Assembly (NCBI GenBank): GCA_020349945.1
Contig: CP070704.1
Span: forward strand, 33,250 to 65,581
Direction: 5' to 3'
From: Deltaproteobacteria bacterium
Lineage (GTDB): Bacteria > Desulfobacterota > DSM-4660 > Desulfatiglandales > B25-G16
Length of the DNA: 32,332 nt
Numbering within the stretch: the stretch's first letter is position 1; every line of letters begins with the position of its first letter. A program made the position numbers and the translations under genes. This document shows positions 737 through 11,349 of this stretch, piece after piece. The notes beneath the pieces were generated by a model. It saw only the letters and a list, made by a program, of their open reading frames with translations, searched no databases and was not told where the DNA came from.

Positions 737-2056
737 CTACCTGCATTTCACCCATTGCCTTACCATGTTAGATTTTTCCCTTGATCGCCCCATGATATCT
801 TCCACATCTAAGGTAGAGAGCCTTCTGTCCTCCATAACAAGATTCCCATCTATGATCGAATGTTTTACATCATGACCACTCGCAGCATAGACAAGGTGCG
901 AATAGGGATTATACATTGGAATAAGATGGGGCCTATTGAGGTCAATCACTATCAGATCAGCCCTTTTGCCCACCTCCAGGGATCCGGTTATTTTCTCAAG
1001 CCCCAGGGCCCTGGCGCCATCTATAGTTGCCATCTTGATAAGAGTTTGGGCATCCATGACTGTAGGGTCGAGCTTATGTGCCTTATGTAGCTTAGCGGCC
1101 ATGTCCATTTCACCAAGAAGATCAAGGTTGTTATTGGAGGCACATCCATCAGTACCCAGCCCCACCGTTATGCCTCTGGCTATCATCTCAGGAACAGGGG
1201 CTATGCCTGAGGCAAGTTTCATATTGCTCTCCGGATTATGAACTACGCTTACCTTGTGTTCCGCGAGTAATTCTATCTCGGATTCGCTGACATGGACGCA
1301 GTGATCCAAGATGAGGTGGGGACCCAAAAGACCAAGATCTTCCAAGTGCTGAGCAGGTCTCTTTCCAAATCTTTCTTCTACACCCTCCAATTCATCTCTT
1401 GACTCTGAGAGGTGGAGGATAAGGGGAACACCCTTTCTAAGGGCCAAATCATTCGCCTTGAGTAACAGTTCGACCCCGCAGGTGAATAAGGAGTGTGGTT
1501 CGACTGCTATGTTTATAAGGGGATCCTCCTTCCATCTCTCAATCAATCCCTCTGTATAGATAAATCCCTTCTCTATTATTCCATAGTTTGGTGAGGGAAA
1601 ATCGTAGAGGACCTCTCCAACCAGACACCTTATCCCGGCCTGCTTCGCTGCCCTGGCTACCTCCTCCTCAAAGAGATACATATCACAGAATGTCGTAGTT
1701 CCTGACATTATCATCTCCGCGCAGGCCAAGAGGGTTCCAACCCTAACAAAATCACCATCCATCTTCCCCTCAGCAGGAAAAATGTAATTATGCAACCAAT
1801 CCATAAGGGGAAGATCATCGGCTAGGCCCCTGAAAAGGGTCATAGCTGCATGGGTATGCCCATTTATGAGACCAGGAAGTATCAGGCCACCTTCGGCATC
1901 AAGCTCCTTTTCTGCACTTATTGAGCCCTTTTTATCCTTTCCGATATAATCTATCGTATTGCCTGATATGGTTAAAAGACCATTGGGGATAACCCTATCC
2001 TGATCATCCATGGTAAGAAGAGTCCCGTTATATACCAAGATATCTGCCCTGGTCAT
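737..2056 (-). CDS. mtaD: 5-methylthioadenosine/S-adenosylhomocysteine deaminase
   Basis: An amidohydrolase of 439 residues, the usual family length, expected to deaminate 5'-methylthioadenosine and/or S-adenosylhomocysteine in the cytosol. The metal ligands are visible: H67 and H69 in 'GLINGHTHAAMTLFRGL', later His residues in 'LILHLSESRDE' and 'LDHCVHV', and the catalytic Asp in 'GLGTDGCASNNNLDLLGEM'. That last motif is characteristic of the MtaD/TrzA-like branch. The ATG overlaps the stop of the upstream phosphorylase gene by four bases (ATGA), so the two are almost certainly co-translated. Together they could convert MTA to methylthioinosine and then to hypoxanthine plus methylthioribose-1-phosphate; that coupling is inference. 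Guanine or atrazine-type deaminases are more distant alternatives. Confidence 0.92.
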   Translation of the reverse strand: MTRADILVYNGTLLTMDDQDRVIPNGLLTISGNTIDYIGKDKKGSISAEKELDAEGGLILPGLINGHTHAAMTLFRGLADDLPLMDWLHNYIFPAEGKMDGDFVRVGTLLACAEMIMSGTTTFCDMYLFEEEVARAAKQAGIRCLVGEVLYDFPSPNYGIIEKGFIYTEGLIERWKEDPLINIAVEPHSLFTCGVELLLKANDLALRKGVPLILHLSESRDELEGVEERFGKRPAQHLEDLGLLGPHLILDHCVHVSESEIELLAEHKVSVVHNPESNMKLASGIAPVPEMIARGITVGLGTDGCASNNNLDLLGEMDMAAKLHKAHKLDPTVMDAQTLIKMATIDGARALGLEKITGSLEVGKRADLIVIDLNRPHLIPMYNPYSHLVYAASGHDVKHSIIDGNLVMEDRRLSTLDVEDIMGRSREKSNMVRQWVKCR

Positions 2057-2868
2057 TTGTCCAGATCCATGACGATCTTCGTGAGTAATCTAGCTAAGGA
2101 TGGGGACGCCTTTGTGGCATTAGCAATGACCTCCTCAATCGAGATGGGGGTCATATCAGGGATGTTGATATTGGTGATAGCTACAATTGCCAATACCTTT
2201 AGTCTGGAATGAACAGCCACGATAACCTCATGAACAGTTGACATCCCTACCGCATCCGCACCTATATTCCTTAGGAATCTTGTCTCAGCAGGTGTTTCAA
2301 GGCTTGGGCCGGTTATACCCACATACACACCTTCATTCAGATTGACCCCTTCTTCTATCGCCTTTTTCCTGGCTAAGGCTATCAGATCCTTATCGTAGGC
2401 AGAGGTCATATCAGGAAACCTGGGCCCAAATTCCCCCAAATTTTCCCCGATAAGGGGATTATGCCCGGTTAGGTTTATGTGATCTGTCACGAGCATCAAT
2501 TCTCCTGGTGCAAAATGAGGGTTTAATCCGCCAGCAGCACTGGAAATAAAAAGGTACTTCACCCCTAGGGCCGCCATAACCCTGACTGGAAATGTAACCT
2601 CATGAACCGTATATCCCTCGTAGATGTGAAATCTTCCCTGCATGGCAAGGATTGGCCTTCCGGCTATACTGCCAGAGACAAGGATACCAGCATGGCCAGC
2701 AGCAGTTGATCTTGGAAAATGAGGTATCTCTTCATAAGAAATCTCTTGATCCATCTCCATGGTGTCGGTCAGGCTCCCAAGACCCGTACCCGTAATCATC
2801 CCTATAAGGGGTTTCCTCTTTATTTTCTCCCGTATAGAATCGGCTGCCTCGGTTATCTTCTGAAACAT
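2053..2868 (-). CDS. Purine nucleoside phosphorylase (PNP/MTAP superfamily)
   Basis: A trimeric-type (NP-I, PunA-like) purine nucleoside phosphorylase of 271 residues; the family is typically 265-290. The phosphate-binding loop 'TGTGLGSLTD' lies near residues 26-35, and 'STAAGHAG' and 'GRFHIYEGY' follow. The base-binding Glu is in 'GPSLETPAETRFLRNIGADAVGMSTVHE', quoted here only as a position marker (about residues 168-195), and 'AITNIN' carries the Asn that in PNPs reads 6-oxopurines; MTA phosphorylases usually have Asp there. The enzyme should therefore split inosine, guanosine or methylthioinosine rather than adenosine or MTA. It is the first gene of a two-gene operon with mtaD and has its own promoter just upstream. 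Substrate choice between inosine and methylthioinosine cannot be settled from sequence. Confidence 0.9.
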   Translation of the reverse strand: MFQKITEAADSIREKIKRKPLIGMITGTGLGSLTDTMEMDQEISYEEIPHFPRSTAAGHAGILVSGSIAGRPILAMQGRFHIYEGYTVHEVTFPVRVMAALGVKYLFISSAAGGLNPHFAPGELMLVTDHINLTGHNPLIGENLGEFGPRFPDMTSAYDKDLIALARKKAIEEGVNLNEGVYVGITGPSLETPAETRFLRNIGADAVGMSTVHEVIVAVHSRLKVLAIVAITNINIPDMTPISIEEVIANATKASPSLARLLTKIVMDLDK

Positions 2869-2895
2869 CCTGCTTTCACCACCAAATCTGTAAAC

Positions 2896-2924
2896 TAATT
2901 AGATTAGATAGATAATAAAGTCAA
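2896..2924 (-). promoter_or_regulatory. Sigma70-like promoter for the PNP-mtaD operon
   Basis: On the minus strand, TTGACT (2919-2924) is followed after 17 bases by TAATTA (2896-2901). The expected transcript would start near 2889, about 20 bases before the PNP ATG. It lies back to back with the plus-strand promoter at 2946-2974. Confidence 0.55.
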
Positions 2925-2945
2925 CACGGCTTACCAATTTTATCC

Positions 2946-2974
2946 TTGACCCACCCCCAATAGCCCTCTACTAT
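2946..2974 (+). promoter_or_regulatory. Sigma70-like promoter for the COG2187/COG0645/nadK gene run
   Basis: TTGACC (2946-2951), a 17-base spacer and TACTAT (2969-2974). Transcription would begin near 2981, leaving a very short leader before the GTG at 2993 or about 45 bases before the ATG at 3027. Confidence 0.55.
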
Positions 2975-2992
2975 GCCCTAAACAAGGAAATT

Positions 2993-4027
2993 GTGAGGGT
3001 TAACCTTTCTATTGATGGGCAAAAAATGCATTCTATGATCCATGATCTCTTAGATCCAGCCCTTCTTCCGGATAAAACGGAAAAGGTATCCCTTATTCAG
3101 ACGCATATCTCTGTTGTTATGATTGCAGATGAATTCGTATATAAGATAAAAAAGCCGGTCAATTTTGGATTTCTAGACTTTTCAACCCTCAAGAAAAGGC
3201 GCTATTACTGTCATCAAGAGATCATACTGAACAGGCGATTATCAAAGGACATATATATAGGCGTGCTGCCAATATTCTATGATGGCAAAGTCTACACGAT
3301 GGGAAGAGGGAAGGGGAGGATTGCGGAATACGCAGTTAAAATGAAAAGGCTCCCTGATGAAATGCTCATGAAATCGGTATTTCTTCGGGGAGAACTAAGG
3401 GGTGAAGATCTAAGAAAGATTGCCACGGTACTTGCAAGATTTCACCGAGGTGCCCGAAATTCCTCTTCTATTGACACATTTGGTGAGCCGGAAAGCTTCA
3501 AGGTAAATACCGATGAGAATTTTGCACAGACCCAGAAATACATTGAAACAACAATTCAAAGAAAAGACTTCGATGCCCTCAGGAGATGGACAACAGGCTT
3601 CTACCATTCAAACAGGGAACTTTTCCTGGGGAGGATAAAGGCCAAAAAGATCAGGGACTGCCATGGTGATCTTCACATGGAACATATCTGCCTTACAGAG
3701 GGCCTGCCGATATTTGATTGTATTGAATTTAACAGGAGATTCAGATATAGTGATCGTGTCTCCGACATTGCCTTTCTCTTGATGGATCTGGAATATCACG
3801 GAGGGAATGCCTTTTCTAGGGTGCTGTGGGATCTCTACAAGGAAATGGCAGGCGAAGAGGCCAAGGTAGATTCCTTGCTGACCTTTTATAAGGTTTATCG
3901 GGCCTTTGTCCGGGGAAAGGTGAGCAGTTTTCAGCTTGACGACGAAGGCATAGGAATAGAAAAAAAGGAGGAGGCTATACAGGTAGCAAGGAGATACTTC
4001 GGTCTTGCAAGGTCTTATGTGGGATGA
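2993..4027 (+). CDS. COG2187-type aminoglycoside-phosphotransferase-like kinase
   Basis: 344 residues with a protein-kinase-like phosphotransferase fold, cytosolic, physiological substrate unknown. The catalytic loop 'RDCHGDLHMEHICL' (HGDxHxxH type) lies near residues 221-234. The metal-binding region 'IFDCIEFNRRFRYSDRVSD' follows, and the N-terminal family signature 'VYKIKKPVNFGFLDFSTL' is at about residues 48-65. In many bacteria this domain is fused to a C-terminal COG0645 P-loop kinase; here the two are separate overlapping reading frames. The GTG at 2993 has AAGGA five bases upstream; the ATG at 3027 would remove 11 residues and cannot be excluded. The name 'aminoglycoside' reflects homology only and does not imply drug resistance. 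Confidence 0.85.
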   Translation: MRVNLSIDGQKMHSMIHDLLDPALLPDKTEKVSLIQTHISVVMIADEFVYKIKKPVNFGFLDFSTLKKRRYYCHQEIILNRRLSKDIYIGVLPIFYDGKVYTMGRGKGRIAEYAVKMKRLPDEMLMKSVFLRGELRGEDLRKIATVLARFHRGARNSSSIDTFGEPESFKVNTDENFAQTQKYIETTIQRKDFDALRRWTTGFYHSNRELFLGRIKAKKIRDCHGDLHMEHICLTEGLPIFDCIEFNRRFRYSDRVSDIAFLLMDLEYHGGNAFSRVLWDLYKEMAGEEAKVDSLLTFYKVYRAFVRGKVSSFQLDDEGIGIEKKEEAIQVARRYFGLARSYVG

Positions 4028-5605: not shown

Positions 5606-5816
5606 GTACACCTTGTTTATAGATAGGAAGGAAATATGTTATTTACAATGGATAATAGAGTCTTATGATGGGATGGCCTCCATGAGAACTATTAATCCCA
5701 CAAATGGGGAGGTTGAGATCTCCATATCCCCAGGGTGCAAGGAAGAAATCTCTTCACTTATCAAATATCTAAAGGAGGAGGGGAGCATTCATGTTAAGGC
5801 AGGAGAGATAGGTTGA
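5574..5816 (+). CDS. DUF4911 domain protein
   Basis: 80-residue protein from a GTG, overlapping the end of nadK by 32 bases and the TTG start of miaB by four. The pattern 'FIDRKEICYLQWIIESYDG' followed by 'PGCKEEISSLIKYL' is what I know as the DUF4911 family: a short protein with an initial basic strand, a helix and a terminal Cys-containing helix. No catalytic motif is visible. Its place between NAD kinase and MiaB recurs in my recollection of Desulfobacterota genomes, but this is memory and not checked. Codon pattern and frame continuity support a real gene even though the start is a GTG without a clear ribosome-binding site. Function unknown. Confidence 0.75.
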   Translation: MNPLTTRQAGKYTLFIDRKEICYLQWIIESYDGMASMRTINPTNGEVEISISPGCKEEISSLIKYLKEEGSIHVKAGEIG

Positions 5817-7135
5817 CCGAGTTATTTTACATAAAGACCTTCGGCTGTCAGATGAATAAGCATGATTCCGACTCCATGAGCCAGATCCTTATTAACCAAG
5901 GGTATAGGCAAACCGAGAGCATTAAAGATGCTCACATTATCTTGGTCAATACCTGCGCAGTCAGAGAGAAGGCTGAAGAAAAGGCACTGAGCCTTATTGG
6001 TCGATTGTCTCATTTAAGAACAAAGAAACCGAATTTGATTACCGGGGTCATTGGATGTGTAGCCCAGGAAAGGGGCGTAAATCTCTTAAAACACTTCCCC
6101 TATCTTGATCTAATCTTGGGCCCACGAAATATCTATCAAATAGACAAATTGCTCTCTCAGATCAAGAAAGAAAGGGAGAGGATTTCCTCTCTCGATTTGG
6201 CCTGTGAGCTCACCTCATTTCCCAAGTGCAACGGTTATTTCAAAGGAAGGGTTACAAGCTTTTTAAAGATCATGGAAGGATGTGATAACTTTTGTACCTA
6301 TTGCATTGTTCCTTTTGTTAGGGGTAGGGAGACAAGCCTGCCAGCAGAAAAAATTATTGATGAGGCTAAACATTTAGTGAGTCAAGGTATAAAGGAGATC
6401 ACCCTTATAGGACAGAATGTAAACTCCTACAACGTGAGAGACAAGGCTTTACCAACATTTCCTGGCTTACTCAATGAGCTGGATAGTATATCAGGCTTAG
6501 AAAGGCTTCGGTTCACAACTTCTCATCCCAAGAATTTGTCCGATGAACTGATAGATCTCTTTGCAGGATCAAAAAGCCTCTGTGCGCACATGCACTTGCC
6601 GGTTCAATCAGGCTCGAATAACATACTGAAGCTTATGAGCAGGGGATATACCAGAGATAAATATATTGATTTGATAGAACGCCTCAGAAAAACAAGGCCT
6701 GGTATAACAATTACAAGCGATATGATTGTTGGTTTTCCAGGGGAGACGGAAAAAGATTTTGAAGATAGTTTAAGGTTGATAGACGAGATAGGATTTGATA
6801 ATCTATTTTCCTTTAAATATTCCGAAAGACCAGGAATTAAGGCATTAGAATTACCGGGAAAGATCGGGGAAAACGAGAAGCAGAGACGCTTGTCTATATT
6901 GCAAGAGAGGCAAAGAGGAATAACCTTATCGAAAAATAGGTTACTTGAAGGAACAATTCAAGAGATTCTGGTAGAGGGTCCTGCCAAAAGAGGAGATAAT
7001 CAGCTAACTGGAAGGACCCGAGGAGACAAGGTGGTCAATTTCCCCTCGGCAAACAATCTTAAGGGGCGATTGGTGATGGTCAGGATTGTTAAAGGTTTTC
7101 AGAACTCACTGCTCGCTGAATTAGTTGATGGATAG
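5813..7135 (+). CDS. miaB: tRNA-2-methylthio-N6-dimethylallyladenosine synthase MiaB
   Basis: Radical SAM methylthiotransferase that adds the 2-methylthio group to i6A37 of tRNA. 440 residues, full length. The N-terminal UPF0004 domain carries the three auxiliary-cluster cysteines C12, C48 and C82. The radical SAM cluster is C157/C161/C164 in 'GCDNFCTYCIVPFVRGRE', a MiaB signature. The C-terminal TRAM domain occupies roughly the last 65 residues. The start is TTG at 5813, overlapping the DUF4911 stop as TTGA, with AGGAGAG at 5801-5807 as ribosome-binding site. The family also includes RimO and MtaB; 'FVRGRE' and the TRAM ending favour MiaB. Confidence 0.95.
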   Translation: MTELFYIKTFGCQMNKHDSDSMSQILINQGYRQTESIKDAHIILVNTCAVREKAEEKALSLIGRLSHLRTKKPNLITGVIGCVAQERGVNLLKHFPYLDLILGPRNIYQIDKLLSQIKKERERISSLDLACELTSFPKCNGYFKGRVTSFLKIMEGCDNFCTYCIVPFVRGRETSLPAEKIIDEAKHLVSQGIKEITLIGQNVNSYNVRDKALPTFPGLLNELDSISGLERLRFTTSHPKNLSDELIDLFAGSKSLCAHMHLPVQSGSNNILKLMSRGYTRDKYIDLIERLRKTRPGITITSDMIVGFPGETEKDFEDSLRLIDEIGFDNLFSFKYSERPGIKALELPGKIGENEKQRRLSILQERQRGITLSKNRLLEGTIQEILVEGPAKRGDNQLTGRTRGDKVVNFPSANNLKGRLVMVRIVKGFQNSLLAELVDG

Positions 7136-7164
7136 AATTAGAAGATGAGTGAGGTTATCTCAAG

Positions 7165-8025
7165 ATGGCAAAAAAATACGATTATGGGAAAGAAAATCTC
7201 TTGATCGTAGACCATGAGATAGAAATAGGGAAAGGCCTGACGGATTCACTATCAAATTTAGGGTTTAATGCTGATTTCGTCAGTAACGGAAAAAATGCAT
7301 TACAGGAACTCAGAAATAAAAAATATACCTTTCTGATTACCGATATAAATATGCCAGCAGTTAAGGGCATTGAATTAATAAAGACAGTGAAGAAAGAAAC
7401 TCCCCATATCAATATAATCGCCATGACTGGGTGTGATAAAGGCTGTACATTTATAGATCTCATCGATGCGGGAGCAAATGATTTTATTAGTAAGCCGTTT
7501 GACACTGATGAGATGGAGGCCAAGATCAAGAGAATCTTGATAGAAAGAAAGATTAGAGATGAGTTGGCTCGGTTATCAATAACCGACAATCTTACTGGTC
7601 TCTTTAATCAGCGACATTTTTATAACAGACTAAAAGAGGAGATTGGCAGGACAAACCGCCTGAACCATCCATTATCCTTAATCTTTTTGGATCTGGATAA
7701 TTTCAAACGTTATAACGATCAATATGGTCATCTCGCAGGCGATAAGATGCTCGCTAGATGTGGAAAGATTATTCTTTCAAACATCAGGGAGAATGTGGAT
7801 ATTGCCTTTAGATACGGAGGTGATGAGTTCGCAGTTATTCTCATTGAGGCGGATAATACTATTGCTCAAAGCATAAGCGGAAGGCTTAAAATGGGATTTG
7901 AAGATGATGGTGTTGTAACAGCGAGTATAGGCATTGCAACATATTCAGAGGAAATGAATGAAAAGGATCTTATTGCATTAGCTGATAAAGATCTTTATAA
8001 GAGAAAAAATAGGGACGATTCGTAG
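7165..8025 (+). CDS. Response regulator with GGDEF diguanylate cyclase output
   Basis: 286-residue two-domain signalling protein. The receiver domain (about 10-125) has the phospho-acceptor D60 in 'LITDINMP', T88 and K110 in 'ISKPFD'. The GGDEF domain (about 140-284) has the intact 'RYGGDEF' at 216-222 and D176 in 'FLDLDNFKRYND', so it should make cyclic di-GMP. The usual inhibitory RxxD site five residues upstream is not intact: D212 is present but Glu209 stands where Arg is expected (Arg is one residue off at 208). GAGG at 7151-7154 serves the ATG. No histidine kinase is nearby, so its input is unknown. The gene follows miaB by 29 bases and may be co-transcribed. Confidence 0.92.
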   Translation: MAKKYDYGKENLLIVDHEIEIGKGLTDSLSNLGFNADFVSNGKNALQELRNKKYTFLITDINMPAVKGIELIKTVKKETPHINIIAMTGCDKGCTFIDLIDAGANDFISKPFDTDEMEAKIKRILIERKIRDELARLSITDNLTGLFNQRHFYNRLKEEIGRTNRLNHPLSLIFLDLDNFKRYNDQYGHLAGDKMLARCGKIILSNIRENVDIAFRYGGDEFAVILIEADNTIAQSISGRLKMGFEDDGVVTASIGIATYSEEMNEKDLIALADKDLYKRKNRDDS

Positions 8026-8147
8026 GTTTTAAGGGAAAAATTAGGTCTGATAATATATATTATGTAAACTCAAGCTAATGTCCCTTCATTTTTGCCCCTA
8101 CTGTATCGTTTCCTAACCCTATTAAATCGCCGGAGGTTATCAATTCC

Positions 8148-8240
8148 ATGAGCAGCGTTGTAAAAAAAAGAAGAAAAAAGATAAGAAAACATAAGTATAG
8201 GAAGCTAACCAAATCCATGCGGCATAAAAATAAGAGATAG
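8148..8240 (+). CDS. COX24/AURKAIP1-domain mini-protein (probable small ribosomal protein)
   Basis: 30-residue, very basic peptide: 'MSSVVKKRRKKIRKHKY' followed by 'RKLTKSMRHKNKR'. The core 'KKRRKKIRKHKYRKL' matches the AURKAIP1/COX24 domain known from mitochondrial ribosomal proteins and from a widespread family of about 30-35-residue bacterial proteins. The bacterial members are thought to be ribosome-associated. The ATG has GGAGG at 8132-8136, eleven bases upstream. It stands alone between the GGDEF gene and a convergent dehydrogenase gene and is followed by a possible terminator. Its composition is Lys/Arg throughout and has no membrane segment. Ribosomal location is inferred from family knowledge. 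Confidence 0.8.
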   Translation: MSSVVKKRRKKIRKHKYRKLTKSMRHKNKR

Positions 8241-8258
8241 CATTTGGTTGCTTTTTTT
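8202..8258 (+). terminator. Possible intrinsic terminator overlapping the end of the COX24-type gene
   Basis: The arm AAGCTAACCAAAT (8202-8214) pairs with ATTTGGTTGCTT (8242-8253), with one bulged T; the T run 8252-8258 follows. The 27-base loop is long for an intrinsic terminator and contains the stop codon, so the 5' arm is inside the coding region. The T run also abuts the stop of the convergent hbd gene. Confidence 0.4.
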
Positions 8259-9108
8259 ATTTATACCATCCCTCAGCCGTTTTTTTGCCGAGTTTACCTG
8301 CCCTCACCATCGTCTTTAATAGATTGGGAGCAACCCATTTGTTTTCTTTGTTAAGCTCTTTATAGAGGTATTCACTTACAAAATAGGCTATATCAATACC
8401 TGTCAAGTCCATCAATTCAAATGGGCCCATGGGATAATTAAGGCCATTTTTTACCGCTGTATCCACATCCTCAATCGAGGCAATACCTTCCTCGACGATC
8501 TTTATAGCCTCAAGAAAATGGGGAATCATTATCCTGTTAACTATAAACCCAGGTGAATCCTTTTTTACCTCTACGGTTGTCTTGCCCATTTTCTCGGCTA
8601 ATTCTATAGTAGTCCTTATTGTGGCATCACTCGTTGAGTAGCCTCTAATTACCTCCACCAGTCTCATCAGAGGAGCAGGATTAAAGAAATGCATTCCACA
8701 AACCTTATCAGGTCTCTTAGTGCTTGCTCCTATTTCTGTAATAGACATGGACGATGTGTTTGTGGCTAGGACCACATCAGGCCTGCACAGCTCGTCTAAC
8801 TGCTTAAAAACCCTCTTTTTCAGATCCAGGTCTTCAATAACCGCCTCCACGACAAAGTCAACATCCTTGAGGTCGGCTATGTCCGTGGTGCCTTTGATGC
8901 GAGCTACAATAGCCTCTTTTTCCTTACCATCCATCTTTCCTTTTTCTACGCTTTTGGAGAGAAAACTGTTTATCTTTTTCATTCCTCCTTCTACAAACTT
9001 CATCTCAATATCCGTCATCACAACATCGCAGCCTATCTGGGCCGCTAGTTGAGCAATGCCGTTGCCCATGGTTCCAGCCCCAACAACGCCTATTTTTTTA
9101 ATCTGCAT
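8257..9108 (-). CDS. hbd: 3-hydroxybutyryl-CoA (3-hydroxyacyl-CoA) dehydrogenase
   Basis: NAD(P)-dependent dehydrogenase of short-chain 3-hydroxyacyl-CoA, 283 residues, full length. The N-terminal Rossmann motif 'GVVGAGTMGNGIAQLAA' begins at residue 7. The catalytic His is in 'VCGMHFFNPAPLMRLVEVI' and the NAD/CoA-binding Asn in 'SSMSI' and 'PGFIVNRI'. The C-terminal domain holds 'NYPMGPFELMDLTGIDIA', as in Hbd. There is no enoyl-CoA hydratase domain, so it is a standalone enzyme. A clear ribosome-binding site, AGGAGGT, sits just upstream of the ATG on the minus strand, and a plausible promoter lies at 9138-9166. Role: butyryl/crotonyl-CoA metabolism or beta-oxidation, common in syntrophic fermenters. 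Confidence 0.93.
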   Translation of the reverse strand: MQIKKIGVVGAGTMGNGIAQLAAQIGCDVVMTDIEMKFVEGGMKKINSFLSKSVEKGKMDGKEKEAIVARIKGTTDIADLKDVDFVVEAVIEDLDLKKRVFKQLDELCRPDVVLATNTSSMSITEIGASTKRPDKVCGMHFFNPAPLMRLVEVIRGYSTSDATIRTTIELAEKMGKTTVEVKKDSPGFIVNRIMIPHFLEAIKIVEEGIASIEDVDTAVKNGLNYPMGPFELMDLTGIDIAYFVSEYLYKELNKENKWVAPNLLKTMVRAGKLGKKTAEGWYK

Positions 9109-9137
9109 AATACCTCCTTTTTTAAGGTTTTACATTA

Positions 9138-9166
9138 ACATTACCTGCTAACTTATCAGAGAGCAA
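9138..9166 (-). promoter_or_regulatory. Possible promoter for hbd
   Basis: Minus strand TTGCTC (9161-9166), 17-base spacer, TAATGT (9138-9143). The transcript would begin near 9131, about 22 bases before the ATG at 9108. Confidence 0.4.
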
Positions 9167-9271
9167 TAGTTTTCACGAACAAGCACATACCGTGTTTCGA
9201 TGAGACTCCGCGTCAAAAACCGAGTTGCCTCTAACATATTTAGGGGCAGATAACAAGAAATTTGAATCAGT

Positions 9272-10366
9272 TTAATCAGGTACCAGGTTTCGAACCCTGC
9301 TGTCAAGGTAACTGCACAGATCAGCAGAACTTTCTGGAGACCATCCCAGAGATTGTCTCCAGATATCATCACTTTCCATACACAGATAAACTCCCAGATC
9401 ATCATGCCATTTTTTCAATCTTTGTGATAGCTTGCTATACATCTCTACCCGAATAGGCTTGAAATAACGGAATTTTCCATCCAAACCTGGGACAAATTCA
9501 CCATTAAAGATGCTTGTTCCCGGAAATCGTCTGTTAATGATCCATTTAAGATCTGGTAAGTATCTAAAAGAGCCCAAGCTTATCCAAATAACCGACTCTG
9601 GGTCAATGTATCTCTCTAAGAGCTCGAGTGTCTCTTGATACTCCTTTCCCCAGCCTGGATAATGGATTAGGGGATCAAAATGAAAGCTCAGCACAAATCC
9701 GGCTTTTTGGCATTTTTGAGCAGCAAGAATCCTACTCTTAAGACTCGCGGTCTTGTGCTCTTGATGAGCGATTATGCGAGGGGTATTGAGCGACCATGCA
9801 ATAACTATCCTTTTTCTATGCCTGCTCTTAATGATACGTTCAATAGAAGACGTCTTTGTCTTTAGCTCCAGTATAGAGTTCTTCTTACGAGAAAAGAACG
9901 GGAGTAAGAAATCAGTCCACCCTGTAATATAATCAAGGGAGAGGCTATCTGTAAATTCTCCGGTTCCAATCCTAAATATCCTATCAGGCGAACTGTCAAT
10001 AATCTCACCTATAACAGTCAGGTTATCCTCTAAGTTACTGAAAATTCGTAGTGATGGTTGATTAATATATGATTGAAGGAAGCAGTAACTGCAGTCCATT
10101 GGACAGTTAGTGCCTACATTGAGGATCTGGTAACCGCAGCAGATATATCCCCTTGTACCCGGGCATGGCTTGAGAAACTCCCCATTAAAACGCATGAGCC
10201 TGAGCGATTCCTTATCCATTCCTTTAATGTCTCCGCTTGGGGCCAATTCATCTGGTCCAACAGTTTCTATGGGTATATTCGGTAATCTTCGAAGTATCTT
10301 TTTGGCAAGAGGATCGTGTTCAGCCCCTTCCTCTATTAAGATTCGGCTGATATTGAATTGCTTCAT
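9272..10366 (-). CDS. SPL-family radical SAM protein (spore photoproduct lyase-like)
   Basis: 364 residues from the ATG at 10366, which overlaps the stop of the ParB-like gene as ATGA; a start seven codons earlier exists but would overlap more. The radical SAM cluster is C88/C92/C95 in 'NCPMDCSYCFLQSY', with the CX3CX2C spacing of spore photoproduct lyase (SPL). The C-terminal part contains 'VLSFHFDPLIHYPGW' and a helix rich in Trp and Cys ('YLCMESDDIW'), as in other SPL-like proteins. The Cys that donates hydrogen in Bacillus SPL (C141) is not present at the matching place; 'GTGEFTDSL' (134-142) lies there. So it is a SPL-like enzyme of unknown substrate, possibly nucleic-acid directed. It is translated together with the ParB-like protein. 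Confidence 0.85.
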   Translation of the reverse strand: MKQFNISRILIEEGAEHDPLAKKILRRLPNIPIETVGPDELAPSGDIKGMDKESLRLMRFNGEFLKPCPGTRGYICCGYQILNVGTNCPMDCSYCFLQSYINQPSLRIFSNLEDNLTVIGEIIDSSPDRIFRIGTGEFTDSLSLDYITGWTDFLLPFFSRKKNSILELKTKTSSIERIIKSRHRKRIVIAWSLNTPRIIAHQEHKTASLKSRILAAQKCQKAGFVLSFHFDPLIHYPGWGKEYQETLELLERYIDPESVIWISLGSFRYLPDLKWIINRRFPGTSIFNGEFVPGLDGKFRYFKPIRVEMYSKLSQRLKKWHDDLGVYLCMESDDIWRQSLGWSPESSADLCSYLDSRVRNLVPD

Positions 10367-11349
10367 CTGTGCTCTTTGCCTTTCCAAAAATCGGTGACCC
10401 CTTCTAATCCAGAAAAACGAGATAGTTCTGCCAGCTTGCCTTTAAGCTCCTGCCCTTTTGTAAAAACTATTTCAAGCCTGTAACCCACCCCTTCAAAGAA
10501 GGGAGGTGGGATTATTTTAACCCCTAAAGGAAGGGAAAGATGAGAAAGGCCTTTTCTGAATAGTTTTTCAGTCTCTACGAGAGTCGGAAACCGCCTGGCT
10601 CTTAGGGTTTTAACTATTGACCTCACCTTTTGGGGATTATTCATTCTTTGACTATTGAGAACTTCTGTGATCTCTCCTCCATCTATAACGTCTTTTATTG
10701 AGCACCCTTCCCTACTGGCAATCTCTATAATCCATTGAGTAGCTTCCCACTGTTGATTAAAGCTCCATTTTATGGATGTCAGCAGATCATTGATCCTTAA
10801 CCGATCATCCCTAGCAATACTCCTCATCAAACCAGCTACCCTTAGGGATAACCTTTCCATGGCAACGGAGGCCCTTATTGCCTCTTCTAACTCCTCGAGA
10901 CCTAAGAATAGTTCTAGCGTTTGTTTGTTTGCTCGGATACCAATGATGGGCATGAAATCGGCTATTATCTCTTCCCTTTTAAGGAAGCGGGTTAACCTTT
11001 TTAAAACCATGGCTTTTTCGATAGTATTTAGTTGACGATGAGTGATATTGTCACTCAAATTAAGCAAGAGTGCCTTAAAAGGGCGAAAAGTATCCGGCGC
11101 TATCTGGCAGAGTATATCTGTCCAGCCCAATTCCCTTACGGCCAGCAATCTTCGATATCCAGCAACCACTGTAAACCTGCTATCTGAGTTTTTAAGCAGA
11201 TATGGGGGATTGAGAACACCAAATCTATTGATGGAGGCCTTGAGTGGTTCCAGGTTAAAATGAAAGCTCATGCTGAATGGTCCTGGTGCTAAATCAATAT
11301 CTGATATCTCAACCTTTGAAGCTTTGCTTTTTAACAGTTCTCTTTCCAT
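10363..11349 (-). CDS. ParB/Srx-fold protein, partner of the SPL-like gene
   Basis: 328 residues. The N-terminal ParB/Sulfiredoxin-like domain covers about residues 14-90, with 'VVAGYRRLLAVRELGW' (62-77) as the ParB box. The usual 'GERRxRA' reads 'GYRRLLA', and the preceding motif is 'LNPPYLL' where ParB has 'QPIVV'. The middle part looks helical, with conserved-looking 'NTIEKAMVLKRLTRFL', as in KorB/ParB-type domains; the C-terminal region is unrecognised. There is no parA or origin nearby, so a chromosome-partition role is unlikely. The ATG is preceded by AGAGGAGAT on the minus strand. It overlaps the SPL-like gene by four bases (ATGA), pointing to a common function. Confidence 0.8.
   Translation of the reverse strand: MERELLKSKASKVEISDIDLAPGPFSMSFHFNLEPLKASINRFGVLNPPYLLKNSDSRFTVVAGYRRLLAVRELGWTDILCQIAPDTFRPFKALLLNLSDNITHRQLNTIEKAMVLKRLTRFLKREEIIADFMPIIGIRANKQTLELFLGLEELEEAIRASVAMERLSLRVAGLMRSIARDDRLRINDLLTSIKWSFNQQWEATQWIIEIASREGCSIKDVIDGGEITEVLNSQRMNNPQKVRSIVKTLRARRFPTLVETEKLFRKGLSHLSLPLGVKIIPPPFFEGVGYRLEIVFTKGQELKGKLAELSRFSGLEGVTDFWKGKEHR

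Follow-up and report, generated by a model that had tools for sequence, protein, structure and literature searches.

A spore photoproduct lyase-like radical SAM protein, a ParB-derived partner and a GT2 glycosyltransferase as a candidate nucleic-acid modification unit

The window analyzed here is a stretch of 32,332 nucleotides (G000:C1:33250-65581) from a 2.53-Mb single-contig genome, which related sequences and synteny assign to the Desulfobacterota. On its minus strand lie two overlapping genes, encoding a ParB paralog and a radical SAM protein of the spore photoproduct lyase (SPL) superfamily, with the following features.

9272..10366, minus strand: SPL-superfamily radical SAM gene, 364 aa, ATG start at 10366 (Pfam SPL, E = 2e-29)
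10363..11349, minus strand: ParB paralog gene, 328 aa, with an Srx-type N domain, an HTH and helical region, and a C-terminal domain
10363..10366, minus strand: ATGA stop/start overlap, seen in the sequence
10960..11325, minus strand: N-terminal (CTP-domain-like) part of the ParB paralog
10378..10818, minus strand: constant C-terminal half of the partner (alignment A3), with R253xP255, ending in a ParB-like dimerization-domain pattern
10136..10165, minus strand: extra Cys motif C68-PGTRGYI-C76-C77, with C68 and C77 invariant and C76 in 95 of 97 relatives
10082..10105, minus strand: radical SAM motif C88-PMD-C92-SY-C95, invariant in 97 relatives
9956..9958, minus strand: E137, aligned with the C141 hydrogen-donor site of B. 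subtilis SPL
9380..9382, minus strand: C329 of the YLCMES motif in the C-terminal extension, Cys in 96 of 97 relatives, with a gap in the remaining one

Both open reading frames are intact, and the predicted overlap was confirmed at 10363-10366, where the TGA stop of the ParB-like gene (10363-10365) meets the ATG of the SPL-like gene (10364-10366); a mechanical open reading frame call started the latter at a TTG at 10387, which is less likely, and the ATG is preferred. No ParA or spore gene was recognized within the window, in keeping with the original prediction, and the genome carries its own canonical parA-parB at about G000:C1:1700450-1702215, some 1.66 Mb from the pair, so the ParB-like protein of the window is a paralog. 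The next gene on the strand of the pair encodes a 3-hydroxyacyl-CoA dehydrogenase, and its linkage to the pair is kept chiefly in close relatives. A MiaB-type methylthiotransferase gene near the pair (window positions 5813-7135) is conserved in close relatives, and a MiaB-like gene was also seen near the GT2 gene described below in two distant genomes (L198 and L199).

The SPL-like protein passed the curated cutoff of the SPL superfamily model PF20903 (102.9 bits versus 27) and failed both the spore photoproduct lyase equivalog TIGR04070 (120 bits versus a cutoff of 400) and TIGR03886 (a score of 38 versus a cutoff of 438). Its AF2 model, a predicted structure with a pLDDT of 94, had solved SP lyases as its six best Foldseek matches (TM 0.78-0.80), and the CX3CX2C motif (C88/C92/C95, invariant) on the TIM-type barrel of that model places the protein among the radical SAM enzymes. 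The likeness to SplB (PDB 4fhc and 4rh0) covers the fold of the whole barrel, this motif, the general layout, and Y97 of SPL, which corresponds to the invariant Y94 of the SPL-like family. Seven Cys residues were invariant or nearly so in the 97 relatives, namely the three of the radical SAM motif and C68, C76, C77, and C329. In the alignment, the C68/C76/C77 motif is missing from Bacillus SPL and from TIGR03886 members, and the C-terminal extension with YLCMES runs past the end of SPL. Given their conservation in sequence, C68, C76/C77, and C329 might possibly bind a second Fe-S cluster; one family (f7, L164) has no C68/C77 motif and retains the partner.

Several features set the protein apart from SplB. 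In an alignment with solved SPL, the donor-Cys column is occupied by E137, within GTGEFTD, and none of the 97 relatives has a Cys at the C141 site, which upholds the earlier observation that this Cys is missing. The Y99 relay site is F96 here; I, F, and V predominate at this site in the family, with counts of 36, 16, and 15 against 9 for Y among 76. The hairpin near residues 300-310 of SPL is lesion-binding, and its counterpart here is shortened by about six residues relative to Bacillus SPL (RRYKWGRYG) and TIGR03886. With C141 and the Y99 relay missing and the hairpin shortened, the SPL-like enzyme is probably not an SP lyase. The TIGR03886 proteins of cyanobacteria, Acidobacteria, Roseomonas, and Deinococcus belong to the same superfamily, and the Roseomonas a and Deinococcus forms also have no C141; however, several members keep C141, the aligned members keep a longer hairpin, and the extra Cys motif is found in none of them. 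The missing C141 need not mean that a hydrogen donor is missing. In a profile alignment, the invariant C68 maps to residue 76 of Geobacillus SPL and hence to the S76C site of the C140A/S76C mutant in PDB 4rh0; the SPL of C. acetobutylicum reportedly relies on C74, located across the pocket, instead of C141 (PMC5368176). An alternative hydrogen donor would therefore be available, so the absence of C141 alone shows neither donor loss nor new chemistry.

In the partner, GYRRLLA (residues 64-70) replaces the GERRxRA of ParB and NPPYLL occupies the place of QPIVV, both in agreement with the first reading of the sequence. The Pfam ParB_N match (E = 5e-5) was below its cutoff, and the cutoff of the ParB partition protein model TIGR00180 was not reached (35.6 bits versus 58.45). 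In profile and structure comparisons, hhalign matched the partner to 26 canonical ParBs over 256 columns (probability 99.7, E = 2.5e-25), a profile of 49 relatives matched ParB and Noc structures (E = 1e-24), and Foldseek returned ParB/Noc (E about 1e-8). The partner is collinear with the N domain, HTH, and C domain of ParB and belongs to the ParB superfamily; the match of its C-terminal end to the canonical ParB dimerization domain was weaker (hhalign probability 65.9, E = 5.7e-5). Residues of the CTP pocket are retained in the GxRR and [DE]N motifs: among the 49 relatives that possess the N domain, G64 and R67 occur in all 49, D or E at position 100 in 43, and N101 in 40.

Of the 105 adjacent partners, 43 have no N domain, and the partner consists of the C-terminal half only in the Binatota and in the Desulfobacterota family f40 (L112, L119, L122, and L130). 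Judged from these sequences, the N domain is dispensable, and what stays constant is the C-terminal half, marked by R253xP255 and its surroundings in alignment A3. The original prediction described the partner by its ParB/Srx fold; the homology to ParB is borne out, but this fold is absent in many lineages. The partner shares full-length collinear homology and the GxRR and [DE]N motifs with the CTP-dependent DNA clamps ParB, Noc, and KorB but differs from them in its score below the ParB cutoff, the absence of ParA beside it, its dispensable N domain, and its tie to SPL and GT2. Confusion with canonical ParB was excluded: in the genome that holds the window, the partner was the sole match of profile A3, and SPL-negative genomes have canonical ParB, yet no A3 match.

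Of 127 distinct loci, 105 have a conserved partner gene next to SPL and in the same orientation; the distance is within 50 bp in 90 loci, and 24 of the 105 adjacent pairs overlap by 4 bases. Both genes also occur in a cultured relative, Solidesulfovibrio alcoholivorans (L091). The adjacency is beyond chance, and the cross-genome neighborhood comparison, proposed earlier as a check, shows that the two families do co-occur. Co-occurrence was then scored in 148 Desulfobacterota genomes with a completeness of at least 90%, the same set serving for all profiles. The SPL profile matched in 88 genomes and the partner profile in 86, with both present in 83 and both absent in 57; the corresponding Fisher value of 4e-31 ignores relatedness and is a guide only. 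Part of the overlap for the partner profile stems from sequences drawn from some of the genomes scored, a selection that did not apply to the unlinked and negative ones. The two genes were not adjacent in 27 of the 83 genomes with both, lying on different contigs in 21 and 1.9-115 kb apart on the same contig in 6. Exceptions with one gene only mostly resolve. In the partner-only genomes G006, G088, and G173, the partner is at a contig edge, and in G173 an SPL gene starts there; in G200, SPL is at a contig edge. G083, G086, and G192 were rejected as SPL-only counterexamples, since the SPL genes there belong to other subfamilies, in which the extra Cys motif is missing. A natural fusion occurs in G195 (L140), where SPL and part of the partner share one reading frame.

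A third component emerged as one GT2 glycosyltransferase subfamily, which lies directly upstream of the partner in the Binatota, Syntrophia-like Desulfobacterota, and Methylomirabilota. It adjoins the partner without SPL in two genomes (G077 and G113) and SPL without the partner in four (G136, G202, G159, and G107). The PF00535 domain is present in the GT2 relatives (E 4e-31 to 4e-40), and the best curated models include mycofactocin MftF and the arsenosugar model TIGR04283, all far below cutoff. Genome-wide scores were bimodal: in 83 genomes the best match reached 313 bits or more, and the remaining listed matches did not exceed 228. The window's genome has one copy, outside the window.

G000:C1:1703551-1704372: GT2 gene, single copy, 403 bits with the subfamily profile

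Across the 148 genomes, all three genes were present in 77 and none in 55, and 16 were mixed. The single-contig, complete genome G071 has none of the three, while all are present in its congeners G107, G159, and G202. G155 has no GT2, an SPL gene broken into fragments in different frames, and a split partner gene. In L088, GT2 and the partner form one frame, a second natural fusion. No GT2 was detected in G061, G097, and G130, which retain SPL and the partner. Because the genes co-occur genome-wide even when unlinked, are found fused, and are lost jointly, it is strongly supported that the SPL-like enzyme, the ParB-derived partner, and GT2 constitute one three-protein functional unit. The shared function first suggested for the two neighbors is strongly supported on the same grounds; the two-gene unit is linked as described but is larger than predicted, with its third component unlinked, elsewhere in the genome. 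In a library of open-access papers, no relevant report turned up on SPL together with ParB, nor on SPL combined with a glycosyltransferase in a gene-neighborhood context, and the unit is provisionally regarded as a previously undescribed pathway.

The other gene neighbors of the pair are lineage-specific. A fourth component was sought and rejected, the neighbors of the unlinked genes being mixed housekeeping genes (IspH, Dus, RecG, PurC, and UbiA) with no common theme; GT2 often adjoins IspH/LytB or UbiA-type genes. A search of plasmids and phages found distant SPL relatives only and no close SPL-like copies, and spore-type repair in a phage or plasmid context was set aside, as the relatives there are distant and those read were without the extra Cys motif. 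Housekeeping neighbors and the absence of close plasmid or phage copies fit vertical inheritance and a constitutive role, not a mobile or defense function. Replacement of photolyase was also set aside, photolyases occurring in 8 of the 148 genomes, too few for testing.

Further arrangements were seen around the GT2, partner, and SPL genes. In the window's own genome, IspH, a Dus-type dihydrouridine synthase, and then GT2 follow each other on one strand (L197, G000:C1:1697000-1709000, positions 6531-10081), and IspH adjoins GT2 in several further genomes of the phylum. A small protein of about 117-131 aa, which we take to be Rho_N-like, recurs beside GT2 or partner genes in two separate lineages (L035-L050, L145-L147, and L163). 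In one lineage (L169, L170, L171, L039, L046, L048, and L052), SPL lies beside ThiI/NFACT-R-type sulfur-transferase-like and GalT-like genes.

With a probability of roughly 0.4, we propose that these proteins hypermodify nucleic acid (RNA or DNA) by radical chemistry, which we infer, with the ParB-derived protein as an adaptor. A nucleic-acid target is suggested because SPL, an enzyme acting on DNA thymines, is the one enzyme group that shares the overall fold, and because the partner is a full-length ParB homolog. Chemistry unlike that of SPL is suggested by the absent C141, the I/F/V/Y at the Y99 site, the shorter hairpin, the four extra conserved Cys residues, and the C-terminal extension, and a glycosyltransferase in the unit points to a lasting modification rather than repair. 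Of the nucleic-acid repair or modification first envisaged, repair lacks support, given the shorter hairpin and the lost Y99 relay, and modification is what may be retained. The ParB paralog would be a dimerizing adaptor that keeps the SPL-like enzyme on nucleic acid; the [4Fe-4S] cluster and SAM would yield a 5'-deoxyadenosyl radical, which would abstract hydrogen from a base that is probably a pyrimidine; the resulting radical would be quenched or used by Cys68 or by a second Fe-S cluster on C68, C76/C77, and C329; and GT2 would then attach a sugar. The product would be a constitutively made hypermodified RNA or DNA base, not a repaired lesion. More tentatively, the full combination may be an undescribed three-protein pathway of the Desulfobacterota, Binatota, and relatives, comprising an SPL-fold enzyme with a second Fe-S cluster, a ParB-derived adaptor, radical chemistry on a base, and glycosylation by a dedicated GT2.

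Several points count against hypermodification. Many lineages have a partner with no N domain, and there it may not bind nucleic acid; most GT2 enzymes make polysaccharides or glycolipids; the neighbors reveal no coherent pathway; the putative second cluster is deduced from Cys conservation only, and family f7, without C68/C77, keeps the partner; and three genomes keep SPL and the partner with GT2 not found.

Adaptor, radical SAM enzyme, and GT2 also recall in outline the mycofactocin-type pathways, from which they differ in having the SPL fold in place of SPASM and an adaptor derived from ParB; radical SAM and GT2 pairs occur in mycofactocin and arsenosugar synthesis, and PqqD-like proteins serve as scaffolds elsewhere. 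The product might accordingly be a small molecule, a peptide-derived cofactor, or a glycoconjugate, with the ParB-derived protein as a scaffold that holds a precursor for the radical SAM enzyme to modify and GT2 to glycosylate. MftF and TIGR04283 among the best GT2 models, however far below cutoff, the frequent IspH/LytB or UbiA-type neighbors of GT2, and a constant part of the partner that is not the ParB N domain are in line with such a product, which we consider somewhat less likely, given that the fold is that of SPL and not SPASM, that the Binatota operon has little space for a peptide gene, and that no transporter, protease, or precursor gene was found among the shared neighbors.

Alternatively, the partner could bind DNA as a regulator in the manner of KorB or Noc, acting on the genes of the unit or on a chromosomal site and leaving the chemistry to SPL and GT2 only. 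Its homology to Noc, KorB, and ParB and the CTP-domain residues retained wherever the N domain exists would suit such a role, but it is unlikely for a protein that has no N domain in 43 of 105 adjacent cases, forms fusions with SPL (L140) and with GT2 (L088), and accompanies SPL even when unlinked. Quite unlikely is repair of the SPL type, in which the ParB paralog would load the enzyme on DNA and a thymine lesion would be reversed with C68 as hydrogen donor: the SPL fold, C68 on the S76C site of 4rh0, the reported use of C74 in C. acetobutylicum (PMC5368176), and the rarity of photolyases in the phylum speak for it, whereas the shorter hairpin, the lost Y99 relay, and the TIGR04070 score speak against it, and direct reversal leaves no sense for a glycosyltransferase. 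Endospores are also not known from the Desulfobacterota. That the genes are chance neighbors with no common function, as the lineage-specific character of the pair's other neighbors might suggest, has a negligible probability and is already refuted by genome-wide co-occurrence, two fusions, and joint loss.

For the preferred hypermodification reading, the gene set is defined, and natural mutants and precise residues are available for testing. SPL has so far been a model of one enzyme with one substrate in spores; here, in nonsporulating phyla, its nearest fold relatives form a fixed unit with a ParB paralog and a glycosyltransferase, kept or lost jointly. If this reading is true, a ParB-family protein would act as an enzyme adaptor rather than in segregation, and a new kind of hypermodified nucleotide would be made. 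From SplB itself, the SPL-like protein is set apart by E137 in place of C141, the altered Y99 site, the shorter hairpin, the extra Cys residues, the C-terminal extension, the near-obligate partner, and the GT2 companion. Gene context has likewise placed an SplB-like enzyme in a DNA-related pathway in SOS contexts with ImuB-C (PMC3765255). The likeness lies in this DNA-related context; those genes differ in having no ParB-like or GT2 partner, and ParB is not mentioned in that paper (PMC3765255).

Two arrangements concern other SPL subfamilies. On the Roseomonas plasmid p546-2 (L190), two overlapping SPL-family genes come after repA-repB, and only one of them carries the donor Cys; RepB is a ParB-family protein, so this locus is a ParB/SPL neighborhood of a different SPL subfamily. 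In L138 (positions 1014-3107), a 698-aa protein has as its C-terminal part a distant SPL-like domain of a different subfamily with a C-terminal CxC, and its N-terminal part presumably resembles a TcmP-type partner protein.
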